The notes under the pieces: model-generated
What the model saw: the letters and a program-made list of their open reading frames with translations, nothing else
What the model was told of the DNA's origin: nothing
Database searches by the model: none
Source: Auricularia sp. M13
Taxonomy: Eukaryota; Basidiomycota; Agaricomycetes; Auriculariales; Auriculariaceae
Reading direction: 5' to 3'
DNA: 64,000 nt
NCBI GenBank assembly: GCA_037042915.1
Contig: CM073202.1
Span: forward strand, 620,001-684,000
Shown here: piece after piece, positions 447 to 16,199 of the stretch
How positions within the stretch are numbered: the first letter of the stretch is position 1
How the letters are laid out: each line of letters opens with the position of its first letter
Translations under genes and position numbers: made by a program

Positions 447-3400
447 ATGGCACCGTTCACGGTCCACCCCGTCCTCGAGGGCTTCAAGGAGCGCGTCGAG
501 GCGGTCTGCATCCAGGGTACGCTCTCCGGCCCGTGTCGAGCGCGTAGCTGACGCGCACAGGCGACCACTTGTACGTCGGGACGAGCACGGGCAACCTGCA
601 TGTATACGAGCTCGACGACCATCCAGGTCTGCATGCTCCGCCTGTATTAAATAATATACTTGCTTATGACGCGTCCGCGCTAGACGACCCGACGCGTACG
701 GTTGCCAACTTGGTCGAGGTCAAGAAGGCCGTAACCGGGCGCACGCGCGCCATTGAGCGCATTGCGTTCTTGCGCGACATTAACTCGCTCGTAATACTCT
801 GCGGTATGTACTGGGCTTGATTGCTTCCCTTGATACCCCGTGTTCGCTGGCTGGCGTCGTGTTGTCGCGGTCGCCAAGCTCGCTGGTAGCTCGAACTGCC
901 TCTGCTATGGACGACGACGACGGCCTCCTGCCACAATGTCTGCATATAACATAGATGCGCGCTGGTCTGCGCGTTGCTGCATCGCACGAGTCCGTTTTAT
1001 GGACTGTTGCACCCTGCGTCCCGCCTCGCGTTCACCGGACGCCATAAGCACTCAGCACCTGTCACACCTACCCCATCATCGTACAACGGCGCTTCCTATT
1101 GATCTAAACCAGCTTCGGCGAAGCTGAATGTTCCGTCCACGGCGCAAATGCGCCGCGGGACTGCATTCAGCGGCGTCGCGGGTTTTCGACATATCGCGCT
1201 CGTCAGTTTGCTGGGCGTGCACTACTTGGCTGTGCGCCCAGATGCGGACCTTCTGCTCGAGGAGGTCTCTACAGGCTCAGGTGTCGCGTGTGACGCTGCG
1301 CGAGCGGCTCGATGTGCTTGATGCGGCATCCGGGTCCGCAGAGGAGGAGGGCGTCGGTACGCTGGCAGCGCAACGATGCGTCGGTATTCGTGCTTTCCAA
1401 CGGACTATCACCCTCCTGCGCGCATTTGATGCGTGTTACCGACTTGTACCTCCATTTCTGCGGTTGCGCGAGCGCATGGATGCTTCAGCTTGAGTCCGCC
1501 ATTGTCGCTTCGCCGAGCTCGTGACTGCTGCATCTCAGTGCGGACAAGGATGCCACAGCCCATTTACAAATTCTGCGGCTCCAACCTACCCATCCCCGTA
1601 ACTACCTTTTTTCTGTCATGACTCGCAGGCACCGGACGGCATCACCACTGTCGCTTTCGAGAACGGCGAGGCCTATCGAGATGGTTTGATTATACCCAGC
1701 GTAACCATTCACGGAGAGCGCACGGGCGCGGGACCGTCTCTTGTGCTTTTGCGAGGCGCTTATGCTAGTGCTCTATGTGCAGCAATGCTCTTGCTTGACC
1801 TCGTTGATCTTCCTTCATGTTGTGGGACCCACCGAGTGACTCGCTGTGCCCATAGCGACATGCAGCCCGTCTCCAGTGCTCTTGAAAATGCAGCGCATAA
1901 GGGCATTGGCCCGAGCCGCCGACTGTCGCTCCGCTTGAGCATCTGGACCCTGCCATCCCTCAAGTCCATGCTACCGTCCGAGTCTGTTTGTCGCCCACCC
2001 GCTTTCGCTTCACTTCCTCTTCAATCCCTCATCGCCCCAAGATTGATGAACTGACGCCCTCCCCGTTCCGCAGATTGGATAATAACGCTGCTCCCCCTGC
2101 CCTCGCTCTCGCCGCCCAAACCGCTCGCGCAGGCGCGCAACGCCATGTCCTTCGCGATCCACACCGCCGTCGTGCCCTCGGAGAGCGACGCGTCCATCAA
2201 GAGCGTCGTCACGCACCTCCTCGCCGGGTGCCAGAAACACGCGGTGCTGTACACGTGGCGCGACGGCGAGGCCGGCGAGGTCAAGGTATGTCGCGCGCTT
2301 CGTGCGTCAGTTCTGAATTCTGAGTTGGCGCGAAGGAATGGTCGCTCCCGCACTCCCCGCGGGCCATAGCGTTCCCCGCGGCGCGCCAGGCGTACATGGC
2401 GTACACCGCCGCAGATATTGTGCTGCTCGACATCGAGAGGGGCGTCGTGTCCGAGGTCGAGTTCCCCACGAGCACGAACGCCGCGAGCGTGCTGCAGTCG
2501 AATATTGCGGGCATGACGGGCGTCAGCATGAATGCGCTTGCCGGGCTGGGGAATTATATGACGCTGGGGTTGGGTGCGAAGGCGAAGCCGTCGCTTGTGC
2601 GCGTTGGCGAGGGCGAGGTGATGATTACGCGCGAACGTGAGTGCCGCCGTGCTATTTCGGGTCGCTGTGCGTGCATGATTCTCATTCGATCTCTATGTAT
2701 CTCGTAGATGCATCGCTGTTTTTTGGGCCGGACAAGAAGCTCAGTCGGCTGGGCGGGATGGAGTGGCCCGCGCCGCCCGAGGATATCTGTGCGCGCCGCC
2801 CCTGCATCACGTCTCGTCAGATTGCGCTAACCTGAATCACGCCTCGCGTGCGGCAGCCTCCGCGCAGAACTACCTGCTGGGCGTCCTCCCCGGCGGGCCG
2901 AATCCGAGCGTGCACGTGCGCTCCAGTCTCTCGCTGCAGGCCGCGCAGACGCTGCCCTACCCGTTCGCGACTTCTTCCTCCTCCACGACGGCAGCGACGC
3001 TGCGTTTGCTGTCGTCGCAGCTGCTCGCCGTCACGCCTGCGGAGAAGAATGCCGCGACGGCGCTGTGGATGCTGCACATGCGGCCGTGGGCGGAGCAGGT
3101 GGACGAGCTCGTCGCGAAGGGCGCGTACGCCGACGCGTTGGCGCTTGTCGATACGCTGGACGGCAACTCGCTGCCCGACAAGGTCTGTTCTGCCTTCCAC
3201 ATTCCAACCTCTTCGTTTTCCCAAGTGCTGATTTCGGCTCTGTGCGGGTTATGTAGGACCAGAGGCGAAAGCACATCCGCGCGCTGCTGGCGGTGTCGTA
3301 CTTCGCGCGCGGCGAGTACGACGGCGCGATCGACCTGTTCATCGAGCTCGAGACGAACCCTGCCCGCGTCGTCGCGCTCTACCCGCCCAACATCTCCGGC

Positions 3401-5529
3401 CGCCTCGGCGTCCCGCGCGAGGGCTGGATCGAGCTGTTCGGGGGCACGCCGCCGCCGCCGCCGGGGGAGACGACGCCGGAGCTCGAGCAGCAGGGCCCGC
3501 GGGCGTCGATCGTCGGCATGAGCATGCTCAAGGGCGGGCTCGACAAGTTCCTCCCGTCCTCGGCGTCCGCCTCTGCGCTCAAGGACAAAGAGAAAGACAA
3601 AGATGCAGCGACAGGGAAGGATGCGGACACACAGAGCGTGACGTCGGCGAAGGACCCGCCGCCCCCGACGAACTTGAAGGCAGCAGCGGACCCGGCGTCG
3701 AAGCGCGCGCTGGAGACGCTCATGCGCTACCTCTCCGACCGGCGGCAGAAGGCGACCGGCGCGCTCGGCGCGCTGCAGATCACGCCCGCCGCGGCGCCGG
3801 AGTACCCGCTGCTCTCGCAGACGCCGCTGGAGGACGTGTGGGCGCTGCCGGACGCGCCGCCCAGCGCGCTCGCGCCCGCCGAGCTCGTGCGCTACGCGCA
3901 GATCGTGTACACCGCGCTGTTCAAGACCTACCTCGCCATCCGCACCACGCTCGTCGGCCCGCTGTGCCGCATCGAGAATTGGTGCGAGGTCGTCGAGGTC
4001 GAGGAGGAGTTGCGCGCGCGGGGGGTGAGTTTCTGTCTGTTTTCCTGCTGGGTGCCCGGTTAGGCTCATCGGAAACTTTTAGATGTTCACGGACCTCATT
4101 GATCTGTATGCGCATAAAAATATGCATGACCAGGCGCTGAAGTTGCTCAAAGAGTGCGTGCACCGTCTGGCATGCCTCCGCTTCAAATGCTGATGAATTG
4201 GACATAGATTGAGCGCAGACGATGATGACCCACGCGACAAGCTCGACCCCACGATACGATACCTGCAGAAACTCCCGCCAAGCGAAGCACAAACCGTCTT
4301 CACGTGGGCCCGCTGGGCCTTCGAAGTCGACGCAAAGCTCGCGCTGAACGTGCGTCGCCATACTTCCGCTCAGAACACGCCGTGCTGAGCCTCTATCCTG
4401 CAGATTTTCACCCTCGAGGAGTCGCAGCTGCCGCGCACTGCTGTCGCGGACTACTTGGAAGGCGTCGATCCGCGCTTATGCATGCGCTTCATTGAGCATC
4501 TGATATACGAGCTGCCTGTGAAGGTGACAGACCAGGCATTCCACGATCGGCTCGCGGACTTGTACCTCCAGGCGGTCGTCAGCGGGCCCAAAGGTTAGTA
4601 TGAGGGTTTCAAGTGTCCACTGTCAGTACTGACTCCTTCCTTTCTCTGTAGAGGAGCGCAAGGACACGTATGATAAGCTGCTGAAATTCATCTCCGATCC
4701 CGAGGCGAATTATCGCCCCGATCGACTATTCGGGCACCTACCATCCGAAGGTACACCTGCAATGTTCGGCGTGCTGGGCCCATATTGACCTGCTGGTTAG
4801 ATTTGTTCGAGGCGAAAGCCATTCTGCTCGGAAGGCTGGGACGACACGAAGCAGCGCTCGAGATATATGTGTACAAGCTGAAGGACTACATCGAGGCCGA
4901 GGAGTGCGTGATGCCCACATATGCATGACATTTCGACGGCTTTAACCTGACGGCTTCGTCGCTGATAGGTACTGCAAGCGCGTACACCGCTCGAGCGGCG
5001 ACCCATCCATTTTCCCTCTGCTGTTGCGCATACTCCTGCGCGCATCTCTGCTTCAGCCCGCCCTGGCGTTCATCTCGCGCCAGTCGCCGCGGCTCGATGC
5101 GCAGGAGACTATCAAGCTTCTTCCGCCACTCGTCCCCGCAGGCGCGTTAAAGGAGTTCCTCGTCGAGGCGGTGCGGCAACCCATATTCGATACCAGGGTC
5201 GTGCGAGACATCGGCAAGGCGCGTGCGGAGGAAGTCTCGAGGAGGCTGGTAGCGCTGCAGGAGCGGCGCGTGCGCGTCGATGATTCGCGAATGTGAGTTG
5301 CTTCTCTGTGGCTTGGAGCTGCAGAGGCTGACACAGGAGCACGACAGATGTCCGCAATGTCACAAGCGTATTGGTGGCAGCGTCATCGCTGTACATTTGC
5401 CCCGGTATGTAATTTATGCTAGGCTTTTCTGCCCGGATTCTGATCCTGATTTTCAGGGGAGAAGTGACTCACTATCAATGTCGGGAAGCCTTCTCGAAGC
5501 GTCTTCGGGACAGTCCTGTCATACACTAA
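447..5529 (+). CDS. VPS39: Vam6/Vps39-like HOPS/CORVET-type tethering subunit
   Basis: Multi-exon gene for a protein of roughly 1,000 residues. The N-terminus is a citron-homology (CNH) beta-propeller: a blade with YVGTSTGNLHVYELDD, then a VKKAVTGRTRAIERI stretch, and later VLYTWRDGEAGEVKEWSLPHS. The middle is alpha-solenoid (clathrin-repeat-like), with a low-complexity Pro/Lys-rich loop around 3450-3650. The C-terminus ends in a CPQCHKRIGG zinc-finger half followed after an intron by EVTHYQC, the treble-clef typical of Vps39/Vam6. Family knowledge: Vps39 is a subunit of the HOPS complex, which tethers vesicles to the vacuole/lysosome with Rab7. The start ATG at 447 is followed after 71 nt by a 43-nt intron that keeps the propeller frame. 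Seen introns include 518-560, 806-2071, one after 2286, one ending at 2707 and one just before the last exon. The 1.27-kb intron is abnormal. The stop TAA is at 5527-5529. Confidence 0.85.
806..2071 (+). other. Abnormally long VPS39 intron, probable ancient insertion
   Basis: The propeller exon ending in LVILC (about 805) joins in frame to the next recognisable exon, DWIITLLPLPSLSPP, at about 2072. The interval starts GTATGT and ends CCGCAG, so it splices as one 1.27-kb intron, while the others in this gene are 40-75 nt. Inside are short coding-like stretches, for example TTVAFENGEAYRDG near 1650, but no complete frame and no family I recognise. It may be a decayed gene or element trapped in the intron, or it may hold an unrecognised nested gene. 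Confidence 0.5.
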
Positions 5530-5720
5530 GGTTTTCCATACACTTGCACCTAATTTATCATCCTTTTGCTGTGGACAGTGGGATGTGCTGCCAGGATCTG
5601 TGGTTCTTCGCATCCTGAGGGCGATCTCTTGCAAGGACCACAATTGAATGAAGAGCTCGGCGCTGACTCGCTTGTTACCAGGCGCTGCACGCGAACAAGA
5701 ATTTTCATAATGACAGTGAC

Positions 5721-5728
5721 TATATAAA
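5721..5728 (+). promoter_or_regulatory. TATA box of BTB gene 1
   Basis: A TATATAAA string lies about 40-47 bp upstream of the BTB gene ATG at 5768, a usual TATA position if the 5' leader is short. Nothing else in the 238-bp VPS39-BTB spacer stands out. Confidence 0.4.
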
Positions 5729-5767
5729 CTGCGGGTACCCTGTTCGGACGCAAAACGATATCCCCCG

Positions 5768-6625
5768 ATGTCTACCAGCACTAAACCTCAGCCATCCTAC
5801 GCTCCCAGCTTCGACCGAGGCGACATCGAAATCATCTCCAGCGATGGTATGCGCTTTCGCACGAATTCTAGGATCTTGAGCCGCGCCTCCGGCTTCTTCG
5901 CATCCATGTTCAAAGACGCGCACGCGGACACCAACGAGCCCGACGAAGCCGCCGTCATCGCAGTTGACGAGGATGGAAAGACACTCGAAATTCTTCTCAG
6001 GGTGTCCAGTGGCCTACCCTTCCTCCCCGACGGAATCGCACTCGAGCTCAAGGCCCTTGAGCGCCTGGCCCTTGCTGCGGAGAAGTATGAGCTTGGTGCC
6101 GCCCTGGACGTCGTGCGGCTCACGCTGCAGAGTGGCCGATTCAGCCAGCAAGAAAGCAGTCTCCACCGCTACGCTCTCGCCACCCGATTCGGCTGGGACG
6201 ACCTGGCCAAGGCAGCGGCTCTCGAGTCTCTCGATGTCGCCCTCGGCTACGACGCGCTGCCTTACATGGACATGCGCCATCTCGCTCGCCTGCTATCGCT
6301 CCGCCAGAGGCGCATCGACATGTTCACCCAGATCATCACCTCGCTCAACGGCCTCTTCGCGCTGGAGAATAATGGCAACTGCCGTCACAGCTCCAAGTCG
6401 CACCCCGCTGGAGAAGGAAAGGCTGCGTGGCCGAGGCTCCGCGCGTCGCTCATCGTGGAGATGTGGGCCCGACCGTCAGGTTCGTCTCTCTTCTTAGACG
6501 GCGAGGCTGTCGACGCGCTGCGGGAGGCAAAGTGCCGTGTCCATGATAGAAACATCTTCGACATCGATAATTTGAAGGACAAAGTGGCGAGGCTCATCAG
6601 CAGGCTCCCTGAGTCCTTGGTCTGA
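5768..6625 (+). CDS. BTB/POZ domain protein (copy 1)
   Basis: Single-exon gene, 285 residues. Residues about 17-110 form a BTB/POZ domain (start GDIEIISSDGMRFRTNSRIL, then SGFFASMF and a VDEDGKTLEILLRV strand). An alpha-helical region follows with LALAAEKYEL and HRYALATRFGW, and a C-terminal helical tail. BTB proteins of this agaricomycete family are thought to act as dimerising adaptors, some for Cullin-3 ubiquitin ligases; the particular substrate is unknown. It is a clear paralogue of the gene at 26941-27786, which shares EKY, HRYALA-RFGW, SLDV and PYMD. It lies tail to tail with trefoil gene 1. No frame damage is seen. Confidence 0.85.
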   Translation: MSTSTKPQPSYAPSFDRGDIEIISSDGMRFRTNSRILSRASGFFASMFKDAHADTNEPDEAAVIAVDEDGKTLEILLRVSSGLPFLPDGIALELKALERLALAAEKYELGAALDVVRLTLQSGRFSQQESSLHRYALATRFGWDDLAKAAALESLDVALGYDALPYMDMRHLARLLSLRQRRIDMFTQIITSLNGLFALENNGNCRHSSKSHPAGEGKAAWPRLRASLIVEMWARPSGSSLFLDGEAVDALREAKCRVHDRNIFDIDNLKDKVARLISRLPESLV

Positions 6626-7285
6626 TGTCTCAGTCGTTCGTTGCCAAGTATAATGTACTCTTGTCTATTGAAGTCATGGCACACCAATGTAACCGACCTG
6701 CTTGCCAGAAACTCGAAGTTGCCCATGATCGTTCAAGGTCTCTCTCCCTATCAAAAATGGTGATGTATATGCTGCCCATGACCACGGTTCGGCTCGGTTT
6801 ATTAAAGGTACAGTACTCATTGAAATCATAAAACTAGATGCAGCGATCTCAGTTCAGGGAAGCTGACGAAATTTTTGGCTTCGGGAAGAAAGTGACAACC
6901 AGATTGACTCGAGAAATGGTGACCGCAGGCGCTTCGTCACAACTAGAATGGCGTGCTCACTTGATAGTCATGTCGATATCTCAATGTAGATTTACTGCAC
7001 CACACGAACCTGCGCTCGATCACACATGACTGCGACATGCGTGCTGTGTGTATTCAAACCTTCGACTTCAACATGCTTTACAAATTTCGGATACAGGTTA
7101 CAGCGTTGTTCAAGAAACTAAACTGGGCGGAAGACCCAAGTCTGGTTTCTATGTGTCACGTCAGAGACCGCCATGTCAGAAGTCATCCAAAAATACGTAC
7201 GGCCCGGTCCCAGGGCCTTCACCCGATGCAGAGAGATCAACCTGCAGTGTAATTTAGTGATTGTAGTTTTTAACAGTCCGTCTGG
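6626..7285. other. Intergenic between BTB 1 and trefoil 1
   Basis: About 660 bp holding only short frames with no recognisable similarity. Both flanking genes end into it, so it should hold two 3' ends; no defined terminator can be read in a eukaryotic gene of this kind. Confidence 0.4.
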
Positions 7286-9507: not shown

Positions 9508-9580
9508 ATTCGGAGCTGACGGGCCCTTCTGGACTGCCTCCGCTTCGCTAGTCTACATTGATCCGCGTCGGCCTTGCTGA

Positions 9581-9604
9581 CGGTCGTCCTTCGTGAAACT
9601 CCGC
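9581..9604 (+). repeat. Left copy of 24-bp inverted motif flanking helicase/DUF6589 pair
   Basis: The motif starts CGGTCGTCCTTCGT and ends AAACTCCGC. Its reverse complement occurs at 15636-15659 with one mismatch in 24. It lies about 40 bp upstream of the helicase ATG, while the partner is about 52 bp upstream of the DUF6589 ATG. It could be a terminal inverted repeat or a shared promoter/leader element. Confidence 0.65.
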
Positions 9605-9644
9605 TCGGAAGTAATCGAAAGCGCAAAACGCGCTGCAGACGCCC

Positions 9645-11994
9645 ATGGCTTCGCAGCCTCTAATCGGTCCGGAACCGCTGGTGACACCTCCGCCAGACGA
9701 CCTTGAGTGGACGTCGCGTGCTGGACACGAAAAAATACGCGAAATCCTGCTTGCATGGCGCGTTGGACACGATCCGCACGACTATTTGCTTGCTTGGTGC
9801 GCGGTTGTTTTAGAAGGCCGTCATCTGTTCGCAACAACTGCAACTGGCGATGGTAAAACATGCATCTTCTATTACCTCGTGATTGTCATGCTCTACTTCG
9901 CTCGGAAAGGCTGGAAGCCGCCGCGCGGAAAGATATGGCCGATACACCCGCTTGCAGTCATTCTCTGTCCGGTAATCGGTATGGAGGAACAAATGGTGAG
10001 CCAAAAGTACTAGTGTGAGAAATGTTTCTCATTCTCTGCACAGGCTACTACCTTTACACGAGTTCGTCTTAATACGGTGGTGTTGAACGCCGATACGATG
10101 CGTGCGAATCCTGCGCTTGTGGCTATCGCAGCACAAACCACCACGACAATGCTAGTGCTTTCTCCCGAGCTTCTCAGCGGCCGCATCTTCGAGAGTCTGC
10201 TTGGAACTGCAGGCTTTATACGACGTCTTGCCCTGCTAGGTGTCGACGAGGTTCACCTGCTCTTGACATGGGGGCGGATGTTCCGACAAGCGTTTCGACA
10301 GATCGGCCTGCTCAATGCGCGTCTGCAGGGATCTACGCGTATTGTTGCCCTCACGGCATCTATTCTCCCTGGTCCTGAGGTTCAGGCCTGCTGCGAGTCG
10401 CTCGGATTGCGTGCATCGGAAATGGTCTTCCTGCGCCGCACCAACCTGCGCGGCAACCTCAGACTGGAGCGGAGGTTCATGTCCTTGACCGGACCAGCAT
10501 TTCCGGACCTAGATTGGCTCGTCAGCAGCAATCTCAAAGTCATTCTGTTCTGTGGTACCATAGCGATGGCGTTCAAAGTCGCATGCGATCTGTGGCCATT
10601 GCTCCCGCCCGGAGACGTGCGCGCAACTCGAATTCGCATCTACACGTCGCTCTTTGGCTCGTCTTACAACGAGGAAACTCGAAATCTGCTTGCTACTCAC
10701 AGCTCAGGTGTCCTGGTCTTGGCAACCTGCGCTCTTTCTGTCGGGATTGACATTCCGTTTGTCGACATTGTATGCATCCTCGGCATTCCAGAGAGCGTCA
10801 ATCAATGCATCCAGGAGCCTGGACGTGCTGCCCGCGGCGATCGAAATCGCATCGGTCGTGGTATCATCATCCTGCCGCATGGAGCAATTGACAGAGCACG
10901 GGCGATGGTTGCCGCGGACGCCGAGACAACAGTCCGGAAGACCCAGTCTGCACTGGCTTCCGTTGATCAATCTCAGACGGGAAATCTGACGCTGGAGGTC
11001 GCAAAGCTCATTATCGCCGAGATTCTGGAGGTTGCTCTTAAAGAGATGTATGAGAACCCTGACCCTGAGCCCTGCTTCTGCACGACATGCGACGGGCTTC
11101 CCATTTCTGGCTGGCCGAACCCCGCATCATGGCAGAAGCTGTCAGATGTGGTTTCGGCGGCGGCGGCAGCTCCGCGCGCGACAAATGGCAGTGGCACACG
11201 TAATCCACTCTCCGCCGACATGCGTGTCTTGGTCGTTTCGCGCCTGCAGAAATGGCGGGGTAAGGTGTACCTTACCTTGCCATCCGACGACACATGGTAC
11301 CTCCCACCGCACGGGATCATCAGCGACGACGACCTGAACCGCATCGCGGAGAATATTTCCGACTTGCGTTCGCTCGCACAGCTCAAGCATTTCGTGTCAC
11401 AACTCGAGTGCCCATTGATCATCGGGCATGAACAGAGCCTTCTCGACGCGGTACACGACGCTTACGATGCTGCGCAATTGGCAATGGCTCGAAAGCGCGC
11501 TGAGGCGAACGAAAAGCGCAAGGCCACGATCGAAGCCAAGAAGGACGTCGCCAAGAAGGACGTCGCCAACTCTCTCCTTGCAACGCTCAATCAGCAACAG
11601 GTAACTGCACGTATTCACTGCGATTCATATGCTCACAATATTCTCTGAGGCTGCACCAGCTGAGGACCGCGCGGCGCCGCTGCTGCTGCCTGCACCATAT
11701 GTCGCCTCAGCTTCTATGGCAGGAGTACCCAATGCTGCCCAGCAGCTCTCTTCAGTGCGTTATTGTCCAGGCATCTTCTGCCATTTGACTGACAAGGATT
11801 CATTTGTTTGGTCACAGTACCCGCTGCGTGAGAGCAATGTGCCCCTCTCCGTGCACTCAGACGCAGTTACACAGCCCAAAAAGCGCACTCGGGCAAACAC
11901 GGCAAAGGAGAACGTGCCCCTTCCCAAGAAAAAAAGACGGTATGTATTCTGATTTCTGTTTCACGGCCGTTACCAACGAATACTGTGCAGATGA
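9645..11994 (+). CDS. RecQ-like DEAD/DEVH-box DNA helicase
   Basis: ATP-dependent helicase of superfamily 2. Motif I is TTATGDGKT (residues about 64-72). Motif II is DEVH (LLGVDEVHLL), motif III is TAS in VALTASILPGPE, and motif VI is QEPGRAARGDR, close to RecQ QE-GRAGRDG. A first intron follows EEQM and joins to ATTFTRVRLN; the main exon covers the two RecA-like domains; two or three small 3' exons follow. A cysteine pair (CFCTTC) lies C-terminal of the helicase core, and the tail is basic (PKKKRR, a probable nuclear signal). The last intron, if spliced, makes TGA at 11992-11994; otherwise a stop follows at 11950-11952. It converges on the DUF6589 gene 33 bp away. Family knowledge: such helicases are expanded in Agaricomycetes; the substrate is unknown. 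Confidence 0.75.
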
Positions 11995-12026
11995 CCTGCC
12001 ACCGTGTGCATGTTAAGTAGGTAGTC

Positions 12027-15000
12027 CTAATCATCTACATACATGGCTTCTTCGTCTGGAATGTCCGCACGGAATCCATCGGCACTCTCAGGTCCGGCAG
12101 CCTCCATCATGTCAAGCTGTCGGAGGACATCCTCCCAGACAAATTCCCCACTGTCGAAGATGAGCGCAGGACCAACGCCAGCCGCGGGAGGTGCTAGTTC
12201 GTCATATACATCGTAAGATGGTACTGCGTCAAGTAGATCTTGCAACGTTGCAGCTTGCGCAGGCATCTGATCGGGGGCGGACTCAAGCATGTCCTGCAGT
12301 GTCGTTGGGTTCGCCAGCCGTTGCTTGCGGATTTCCTCAGCCATCGCGCTTTCGACTGCCGCTGCCCTCTGTGTGTGCGACGAAGGTGTTGGCTTATTGA
12401 AGACGTCATTCTCACGCTGGTGCGCAATGAGAAACTTTGCAAGTGGGCCATCAGACGCCTGCAGTGCGGCCAAACCAGCTCCGAATGACTCCTTGGCGGC
12501 AAACCCTGTTGAACGCCCCGCTGAGAAACGGTGCGGCTGGCTCTCTGCATATGCCTTGAGCAGTGAGTGCACCTCAGGGCGCTGATGCATTGGTTTGTGT
12601 CGGGTACTGCGCGCCGTCAATCCAACAGCTGCCTCCAGATTGCGTGGCAGCTCGACGAGGCTGTCGAGATTTGGGGTAACGACGTTGCGAATGAAGCGCG
12701 AATCGTAGCTCTTGTCCTTGTGCTGCATCTGCCGATCGAGACGGTTGATGAGATGCTCCTGCATGAGATCTCCCTCTTTGAAATGACCTTTCTGGCCAGA
12801 CGGATTAACGAGTAGACTGCTGAGAACAGCCTCGCGCATCGCGGCGTTGCACTCGAATTCGACCATGATGAACATCTCGAGGCCGAAGTTGGTGTACTTT
12901 GGGTTGTGCCCCGAGCCCGCAAACTTTACGGTCTCCATCTGAAGAGCTGTCAGCAATGCGATACAGCTGAGAACTGATCATGCTCACCTTAAATATTTCC
13001 CAAATCTCGCCAACATGACCGCGGGACGTTGCATGACACCAGTGGCGATACGGAATGAAATCAGCCAGACCACAGACCGAATTAGCCAACCAGCGGTCAC
13101 CCTCGAATCCTTCGGCCTCCGTATGCCCAGAGATACCAGCGGATTTCGATGCCCCGCCTGCTGCATGCGAAGCCTCGGGGACAGCAGCTTCCAAAGTTTC
13201 TACTGGCGTGTCAACGGGTTCGTTCTCGTCCTCGGGCGGCGGCGGTGAGGGTGCGGCAGGGATGTCTGATTGAACGGCGCGTAAATCAGGGTTGGAGACA
13301 GTGGACTGTTGCCTCGGTACCGCGAGAGGTGCGCGATATTCGGATGGTTGATCACCATAAGGAAACAAAGCCTGCGCAGCCGCCTTTGGACTAGAATAGG
13401 TGCGATGGAGCTTTTTGGCTATAGCAATGAGGTCTTCGAGTGACGGGAGAGCATTTCGTTCCTTCAGGTCCGAAAAATGAGCCTGAAGATCAGATACGTT
13501 AAGAATTATCCTGGATTGAACGTGAGCACTTAACGCAATCGTCCATATGAAACCAATACCTCCAGCAGTCCAGCATTCGTGTTTCTCCGACGAGGAAAAG
13601 CATCTCCGTGGCTGAATGGAAGTCCGGCTTCTTGAGATTTGTCGGGGGTTTCTTGCGAGCAATGCTCGACCCATGACCAAGACAGGATGCGTCGGAACTG
13701 CGAGCGGAGCCCCACCAGTTGTTGATAATGCGGCCAAGTATAGTCCACTTCGTGTGCCAGAGCATGAGAATAGGGATCATGAAGACCATCTGGTCGTACT
13801 CAGATTTGTACTGCGTCTGAAGGTATTTCTTCAAGCGGAGAAGACTCTCGTAGGTGCCGCCGTCGCCACCAACGAACGTAACACGGCGCTTCCAGCGATC
13901 CTTTGTCTGATTCAGTTGTGTCACAAAAAAGTCGAGGAGCGCCTTGTGCATCTCTGTTGTCTTTGCTGGGTCGCATGCATTGGAACGGAGAGGCTGGATC
14001 GGCGTACGATGCTCGACAGGGAGAACCGGAGCCACTGCAACCTGTTCGAAGCGTTTGTCGAGCTCTGGGCGAAGAGCCTCAAGAGCAGTTACAAACTTTA
14101 CAAGCACGTCGACCCAGTTCAGAATGCAACGGAGATCGATGAGCGAGAAGTTGATTTTCGCCATGAGACTTTTGAGTGTTATCTTCGAGCGGTCAGCGCG
14201 TTGTGCCGCAGCCCACGAGTCGAGATCCCAAGCATCAGCGGCACCGCGGATACCGACACCAGTCCCCGCGACTCCCTTGGCCATTGTGCTCTCACGGCCA
14301 AAGCGAGTCTCGTGCTGGAAGACGTAGTGCTGGGCGTTGTCGATGATAAGCATGAGCCAGAGAATATCCGAGTCAGACGCATTGCGTAGCCAGTCCTCCC
14401 CATCCTGTGTGAGCGTTTCGAGAGCATTGACGACTGTGCTATAGGCGACGTTATTCCCAAACCGACTGCCGATGCGGTAGAGCGATTCCTCGGCGCGCGT
14501 GGCAAACAGAGAGATTCCGCGCGAGAGCTGTAGGAGATTAGCGGCCTTGTTCCGACAGAACAGGATGTCGCCAATGGCTCCAGTCACGACCTAACACGTC
14601 ATTTAGTCGCATTCTCACACGTAGGACAGTGCTCACATTTTCGACGGGCCGGTAGCCCTGACGCACAGGCACTTGATTTGGCCGAGGAGGCTTGCTCCCT
14701 GCACGTACAAGGAAGGCCCATAGCAGGGGACACTTCTCTTCAACGACGCCGCGGACTGTCTCCACTAGGCCAGACCCAAGATCTGACCATTTGAGGTATT
14801 TTGTCATTTGCTCCTCGGAGTCCGACGACGCGTTCTCCGCGAGATCGGCGCGACGCGCTCGGCGAGTTGCAGCAGTTTGGACACGACCATGAAGCCCTCC
14901 ATCTGGTTTTGTCGCTCTTTTGGCGTCTCGTACGATCCGCTCGCAACAGAGAGATGCGGCCCACGCACTGAGAGCCGGCCGCGCATAACGAATCTCGGAA

Positions 15001-15584
15001 TGTGGTGTCTCCACTGAGAACTCCAACTGACGCTCTGAGGATGTTGCTGGTGGCTGGCTAGATGCATCATTGAACATAAGTTGAACCACATGACTGGCTG
15101 TGTGTGTATTATCGCCGCAGAGAAACTTGGAGACAATGTTGGCATGCCGCGATGAACGAGTGACGACAGCTCCGTCCTCATCGTGCTGACGAAAAGACAG
15201 ATACAGAAAGCGCCCCATAGACATCTTATTCCTGACCATGAGCTTGTAGATTTCGTCGAGCTTTTCGTCGATAGATCGGGGTGAGGCGCGCTGCTTGTGC
15301 GGCGGGACAAGCACAGGAATACGCGAGTCTGGTCGAGCAGGTGTTCCCGGACGGCCAGTGAATTGGATTCCAGCATGCATTAACGGAACAGGATACATCT
15401 GGGGCAGGAATTGAACATGCCCCTGCTGTAAATCGGCAGGAGCACGGGCCACCGATGCGTGCACAGGAGTCCCGGGCGGTATGGCATAGATAGGCAGCGG
15501 CACTGCTGCGCGAGGCACAGACTTCTGACCGTGCTGAGCCCCATTCCGTGCCGCCGAGGTGCGTGGCGGGCCGCCTTCCGACAT
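12027..15584 (-). CDS. DUF6589-domain protein, possible DDE-type transposase relative
   Basis: Multi-exon gene starting at 15584 with a Pro/Ala-rich N-terminus of about 120 residues, then a helical segment (SIDEKLDEIYKLMVRNKMS). After an intron near 14590-14640 comes the DUF6589 core: LMLIIDNAQHYVFQHETRFG, FVGGDGGTYESLLRLKKY, LMLWHTKWTILGRI, NNWWGS, KKPDFHSATEMLF. The C-terminus has SSLLVNPSGQKGHFKEGDLM and QEHLINRLDRQ, which match the family's end. I recognise the family from general knowledge of agaricomycete proteins; its function is not established. Spaced acidic residues (IIDN, GGDGG, ATEM) recall an RNase-H-like DDE fold, an inference. It is convergent with the helicase, and the pair is framed by the 24-bp inverted motif. 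No frame damage is seen. Confidence 0.7.
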
Positions 15585-15635
15585 GTGTAGCTAGCGGCAA
15601 GCCCGTCGAAGCGGGCACCGGGGACGGAGGCTTTT

Positions 15636-15659
15636 GCGGAGTTTGACGAAGGACGACCG
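15636..15659 (-). repeat. Right copy of 24-bp inverted motif
   Basis: This is the reverse complement of 9581-9604 with a single internal mismatch. Similarity does not continue recognisably on either side, so if it is a terminal repeat the element is about 6.08 kb (9581-15659). No clear target-site duplication is visible next to it. Confidence 0.65.
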
Positions 15660-16199
15660 ACTATGCGGAGGTTTCCTTTCGCAGCAGACTTTCAAATACC
15701 GATCGACTATCATCGGGATCAAAGTCAGCAACGGAGACTACCGCTTCGCAGAGTTAGGCGGCGGCACGAACCGACAAGTCCGACATCGCTCTTCCTCCGC
15801 TCAACTCCAAAACCTTAAAATTGCAGGGCAGCCGAAGCAACGCCTCTACTGGTCTATGAAGCTTTGTGAGGCTTGGTTGAAGGACTTATGCGCGCTTGGG
15901 ATCTAGAGTGAAGATTGGATTGGATTGCGCACTACAAGTCAAGCAACAGTCAGACCCATAGCTGGGCCAGCGACCACTACTGCCGCCGCCACCGCTTCTT
16001 TCGTGATTGCTCGGCGCGCAGCACATTCCGACCTCTGGCTAAAACCTTCCAAGGCTTTCGGACTTACGAGGCAGAAGCGTCTGACCAACAGCGTTCGAAT
16101 TTCAGCGCTTCAGCTTCTGTCGCAGTGTCTACAGGATTATGGCTTAATGGAACACAATTTCTGCGACGAAAACTCTTCCCAGAGACACATCTGCACCCT
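15660..16199. repeat. Spacer with inverted copy of the 342-413 sequence
   Basis: No gene is seen. Positions 15758-15812, read on the minus strand, match 342-413: GAGTTGAGC, GAGGAAGAG, the 15-bp core beginning GTCGGACTTG, and GCCGCCGC. One 17-bp gap separates the first block in the other copy. Confidence 0.5.

Follow-up and report, generated by a model that had tools for sequence, protein, structure and literature searches.

A probable AcademH-type DNA transposon with DUF6589 and RecQ-like helicase genes and a candidate hairpin module at its right end in Auricularia sp. M13

In Auricularia sp. M13, a gene for a RecQ-like helicase and a gene for a DUF6589 protein converge between two inverted copies of a 24-bp motif, which raises the question of whether the pair forms a mobile element or consists of host genes that share a promoter element. 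The locus lies in a stretch of 64,000 nucleotides (contig CM073202.1, positions 620,001 to 684,000), here called the window, to which coordinates without a prefix refer. A first-pass annotation of this sequence had offered both readings. The evidence points, with a probability of about 0.86, to an AcademH-type DNA transposon that is apparently intact and encodes a DUF6589 DDE transposase together with a RecQ-like helicase partner. At the level of sequence, its boundaries, its 9-bp target-site duplication, its non-autonomous relatives, and the recurrence of the gene pair are established.

Boundaries and relatives of the element

The inverted motif noticed in the first-pass annotation is real, with arms at 9581-9604 and 15636-15659 that are 24 nt long and 96% complementary (23/24); other inverted pairs of at least 20 nt between 8000 and 18000 reach at most 83%. 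However, it is subterminal and does not frame the element as had been supposed. The element begins with TAGTCT at 9549 and ends with AGACTA at 15735-15740, so that its 6192 bp (9549-15740) extend beyond the motif by 32 bp on the left and 81 bp on the right. Abutting these termini is a perfect 9-bp duplication, CCGCTTCGC, at 9540-9548 and 15741-15749, the sole candidate from an automated duplication scan at this locus. The motif is thus ruled out as the terminus, since the ends and the duplication lie outside it, and the first-pass annotation reported no target-site duplication because it took the motif as the boundary.

With up to three mismatches allowed, the motif occurs 12 times in the 52-Mb genome, twice in the window element and ten times in copies of one short repeat family, whereas the reversed control pattern occurs once. 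In the short repeat, similarity continues beyond the motif up to the TAGTCT/AGACTA ends. Because the matches are confined to these mobile copies, the motif is not a general promoter element, and the suggestion of a co-regulated pair is rejected. A host gene pair with a common promoter motif would explain why both genes have the same motif 40 to 52 bp upstream, but it is also contradicted by the 9-bp target-site duplications and is highly improbable.

The short repeats belong to a non-autonomous family of about 351 bp with seven loci, four of which have perfect 9-bp duplications (CCAACAGCT, CCGCCAGTC, ACGGGACCG, and CGAGCAGCG). These four copies measure 351, 351, 347, and 862 bp, and the CGAGCAGCG copy holds a nested insertion. 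Among the other three, the copy at C7:2671208/2674359 is split, with a degenerate right end, and the right ends of the copies at C5:1814507 and C6:4054083 are damaged. Alignment of the flanks, which the first-pass annotation had proposed, gave a common TAGTCT/AGACTA boundary with 9-bp duplications.

The proposed search for further gene pairs was likewise productive, in that 17 of the 21 DUF6589 loci in the genome have a RecQ-like helicase match within 10 kb (13 convergent, 4 divergent, and none tandem); three helicase matches lack a DUF6589 partner. Five gene-bearing loci were examined whole, namely, the window and four others (L080 to L083). Matching termini and 9-bp duplications are found in L080 (6615 bp), L082 (6294 bp; 521-6814 of that locus), and L083 (7320 bp, with divergent genes), although the boundaries of L082 are the outermost 9-bp choice among six self-consistent scan solutions within its long inverted repeat. 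The inverted repeats of L082 are identical over 328 bp, which suggests from sequence alone that this copy moved recently. Together, the terminal repeats, the 9-bp duplication, the non-autonomous relatives with the same ends, and the helicase/DUF6589 pairs at many unrelated places support the reading of the window element as an autonomous mobile element.

Two minor features lie in or near these copies. The nested insertion in the 351-bp family is an element of about 0.5 kb (L075, 1067 to ~1569; C4 ~3984266-3984768) with ends CAAGGGTCCCTCG.../...CGAGGGACCCTTG and an 8-bp duplication, AGCAGACT, judged by eye; its terminal ~34 bp has matches at 13 further places. In the window, the right flank of the element (15758-15801) has a 44-bp inverted match (89%) to the window start (370-413).

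The two genes and their place among known transposons

GT-AG splicing gives open frames for both genes, which lie tail to tail as the first-pass annotation had described. The helicase gene (9645-11994, plus strand; exons 9645-9995, 10044-11600, 11650-11754, 11818-11939, and 11991-11994) encodes 712 aa with its last intron, which is uncertain; the stop is then at 11992-11994, 32 bp from that of the DUF6589 gene (12027-12029), whereas without this intron the frame ends at 11952. The protein is a RecQ-like SF2 helicase with the Pfam domains DEAD and Helicase_C, and the solved structures that match it best carry the names ATP-dependent DNA helicase, Q5 and Q1 (best E value, 7.4e-12). The DUF6589 gene (12027-15584, minus strand; exons 15584-14637, 14590-13535, 13482-12988, and 12938-12027) encodes 1136 aa. 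Its closest relatives are DUF6589 proteins of Auricularia subglabra (56%) and Exidia glandulosa (55%), both compared over residues 270 to 1000. A modelled DUF6589 homologue resembles the Hermes, P-element, and ISCth4 transposases, and this modelling supports a predicted DDE transposase whose RNase H-like core is accompanied by a helical insertion, for which D400, D559, and E894 (codons 14341-14339, 13864-13862, and 12758-12756, minus strand) are the candidate catalytic residues. The locus thus offers an element that appears intact and whose ends are exactly defined, and it assigns a Pfam family that still carries the label "unknown" to the DDE transposases.

Other transposon classes fit less well. 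A MULE is rejected, as PF10551 was unmatched and PF20231 (DUF6589; E value, 1.1e-107) was the sole Pfam match of the protein at E values up to 0.1. The duplications of hAT transposons are 8 bp long, whereas those of the window element and its relatives are 9 bp in each perfect case, and the window element differs from Hermes also in its partner helicase. Helitrons are not known to have target-site duplications or inverted repeats; the window element has both, which rules them out.

The AcademH lineage was reportedly defined within the Academ superfamily by Kojima in 2020. Terminal inverted repeats are an Academ feature that the window element shares, and DUF6589 is presumably the Academ transposase. 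In the excerpts available, AcademH is described as a DNA transposon found in animals and fungi that encodes a helicase and makes duplications of 9 or 10 bp (PMC10045372) and as a low-copy element of three fungal phyla (PMC10799480). The window element resembles it in having a helicase gene beside a transposase gene and a duplication that falls within the 9- or 10-bp range (PMC10045372). Several points weigh against this assignment: the likeness is to descriptions of AcademH rather than to a reference sequence, Foldseek gave no significant match in the PDB (best E value, 0.16), four of the 21 DUF6589 loci have no helicase match within 10 kb, and no duplication was found in exact or 8-of-9 scans of L081, one of the five gene-bearing loci.

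The right-end module and its hairpin

The two ends of the element are not symmetrical. The left end (9549-9604, plus strand) consists of the terminus TAGTCTAC and the subterminal motif, and its inverted repeat on the right (15636-15691, minus strand) consists of the motif and an inner AAGTCTG, so that the end on the DUF6589 side has an extra ~49 bp outside the inverted-repeat register. The ends align best at the inner AGTCTG and not at the outer terminus: in the window element, the best register is at offset 49 (36/60; next best, 27/60; offsets 0 to 149), and in the 351-bp family it is at offset 48 (46/60; next best, 23; 150 offsets). The outer module (15690-15740, minus strand) measures 51 bp in solo copies; examples of it without the rest of the element lie at C1:8251247-8251298 and at C4:4378651-4378712, the latter with a 6-nt insertion.

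The module starts with TAGTCTCC, followed by a stem, the loop GA[T/C]AGTCG, and the other arm of the stem. In the window element, the predicted hairpin is CCGAT-GATAGTCG-ATCGG (15699-15716, read on the minus strand), and the stem covaries across families. Over five families and five positions, 25/25 pairs are Watson-Crick (2/120 permutations of the arms do as well, the true one included); over eight variants, with the unpaired L091 left out, 37/40 are (48/40,320 permutations do as well). The covariation score of the eight-row alignment is 0.704, compared with 0.191 +/- 0.066 for shuffles, of which 0/500 reach it, and a slid maximum of 0.153; these pairing and covariation figures are inflated by related rows. 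Modules of the form TAGTCT...AGTCTG were not found in L001 to L008 (1500 bp beside each DUF6589 match), L072 to L074, or L081, so the module is known only from the window, 351-bp, L080, and TTGGAA/ATGGAA families. Less favorable to the register and the hairpin are the weak best register of L080 (offset 47, 29/60; next best, 25; 150 offsets), the count of pairs in which both sides have changed (five, which 165/500 shuffles reach), and the folding of single modules, which is modestly better than that of shuffles (z = -1.94, -1.18, -1.99, and -1.43; window module, -1.94 on the plus and -1.18 on the minus strand).

In the divergent L083 family, both ends (444-530 and 7690-7763 of L083) can form hairpins, with z = -5.53 on the right (0/200 shuffles as stable) and -1.62 on the left. 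Its terminal TAGTCT or TAGGCT is apparently echoed at the inner hairpin edge (GTCTGGG and GGCTGGG).

Solo modules and the cutting of the right end

Solo copies of the module were sought with the pattern TAGTCTCCN{8,34}GAYAGTCG, which requires the terminus and the loop and has 32 matches in the genome and 0 when reversed. Of these, 26 distinct copies were read (C1:1221640, C1:9336144, C2:328047, C5:377038, and C7:3688691 were left out, and L093 was merged with L092). Twelve continue beyond the inner AGTCTG (AGCCTG in one), where "continuing" means only that the inner site is present; the reading stops ~30 nt beyond it in L096, L097, L100, L101, and L103 and 55 nt beyond it in L087. The other 14, counting L091, which is probably a chance match, are solo, and their duplications are perfect over 9 bp in six, 8/9 in three, 7 in one, 6 in two, and 4 in two. 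In a control with mismatched flanks (2000 draws from 182 ordered pairings), none reached 9 and six reached 8. Four of the nine solos with good duplications (L028, L027, L085, and L099) match the family sequence exactly to A|GTCT; the duplication of L085 after the inner site is 6 nt long, or 8/9 if overlapping letters are counted twice. Internal deletion is an unlikely origin of the 51-bp copies, since the breakpoints of different families lie close to one inner site and there are perfect duplications.

The module lies within the duplication of full copies and is also present at solo sites, so both products come to carry it. The simplest account is a cut of the right end in which the positions on the two strands differ by ~50 nt and the module is left behind, an account that we favor tentatively and at somewhat less than even odds. 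The transposase would bind the inverted repeats, that is, the left end and the inner right end, in each of which the 24-bp motif follows the first 32 nt, and insertion would proceed through a 9-bp staggered cut of the target. At the right end, cleavage of the transferred strand would fall at the outer terminus and that of the other strand ~50 nt inside, at A|GTCTG, so that the excised element would carry the module as a 3' single-stranded tail able to fold into a hairpin. The element-encoded helicase may help to separate the strands over ~50 bp, which would give transposons of this kind a concrete use for one. The complement of the tail would stay behind, and the donor site would be sealed as duplication-module-duplication.

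The main rival is a one-ended insertion, in which the outer right end alone joins the target and the rest is lost near the hairpin or inner site before repair. It agrees with the intact outer termini of the solos, which the pattern demands, and with the six perfect duplications among the 14. A search for the hairpin core alone gave 37 genome matches (0 reversed). The GA[CT]AGTCG loop is intact in 19 of them, and 16 of these 19 coincide with TAGTCTCC matches of the solo search; thus, the intact terminus in this group is not merely an artefact of the pattern. However, one-ended insertion also needs a specific break at A|GTCTG (exact in 4/9) and leaves the inverted-repeat register at the inner site unexplained, and we consider it a credible but doubtful account.

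Incomplete gap repair, in which the element is excised in the ordinary way at its outer ends and repair then copies ~50 nt from the sister copy's right side until the hairpin stalls synthesis, is unlikely. It would suit the four good solos whose ends fall 5, 6, 7, and 12 nt before the inner site, which also count against a cut at a fixed position, and excerpts of one account document incomplete repair synthesis after P-element excision (PMC2895639). Yet solo left ends were absent from the matches of the window element, the 351-bp family (one match is the left part of the split copy), or L080 (the other match is not terminal). Nor were intermediate lengths seen in these three families, in which every pattern match extending beyond the inner site (1, 4, and 1, respectively) is a complete copy with a perfect duplication.

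Other observations tell against cuts ~50 nt apart. Five of the 14 solos have no convincing duplication (7, 6, 6, 4, and 4 of 9). L090 fits the inner site by length only, having been compared with L080 for want of a full copy of its own. The chance of at least four exact ends in nine, 0.006 to 0.002, assumes uniform ends over the ~11 to 15 positions to which solo ends are restricted because the pattern needs terminus and loop and files copies past the inner site as continuing. Solo right ends of the divergent L083 family were sought and not found, all five matches being full length, and no left-end remnants were seen in the solo modules.

The proposed stagger inside the element would have a parallel in the P element, which makes 8-bp duplications and is cut with a 17-nt stagger at each end (PMC7776569); once it has been excised, remnants of its tails persist between these duplications (PMC2895639), as excerpts of these papers state. 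The solo modules suggest a longer stagger for the window element, ~50 nt at one end, in combination with 9-bp duplications. If this is true, each excision would leave a readable scar of ~50 bp, solo modules would be fossils of past excisions, countable in other genomes as well, and what the helicase does could be tested directly. The hairpin and solo modules are not mentioned in the excerpted AcademH accounts (PMC10045372 and PMC10799480), and the outer module and solo ends are unreported in the titles and abstracts found on AcademH, DUF6589, Academ hairpins, and excision footprints, a coverage that does not extend to the defining AcademH paper. Provisionally on that paper, the window element is a new AcademH member whose hairpin module and solo ends look new.

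Two of the solo modules, at C7:3248268-3248398 (L092) and C8:1646802-1646932 (L093), have identical flanks, so the site was probably copied inside another repeat. Hairpin cores with the loop GATAATCG (TGGAAGATAATCGTTCC) occur at 11 places beyond the reach of the solo-search pattern and perhaps represent another right-end family.
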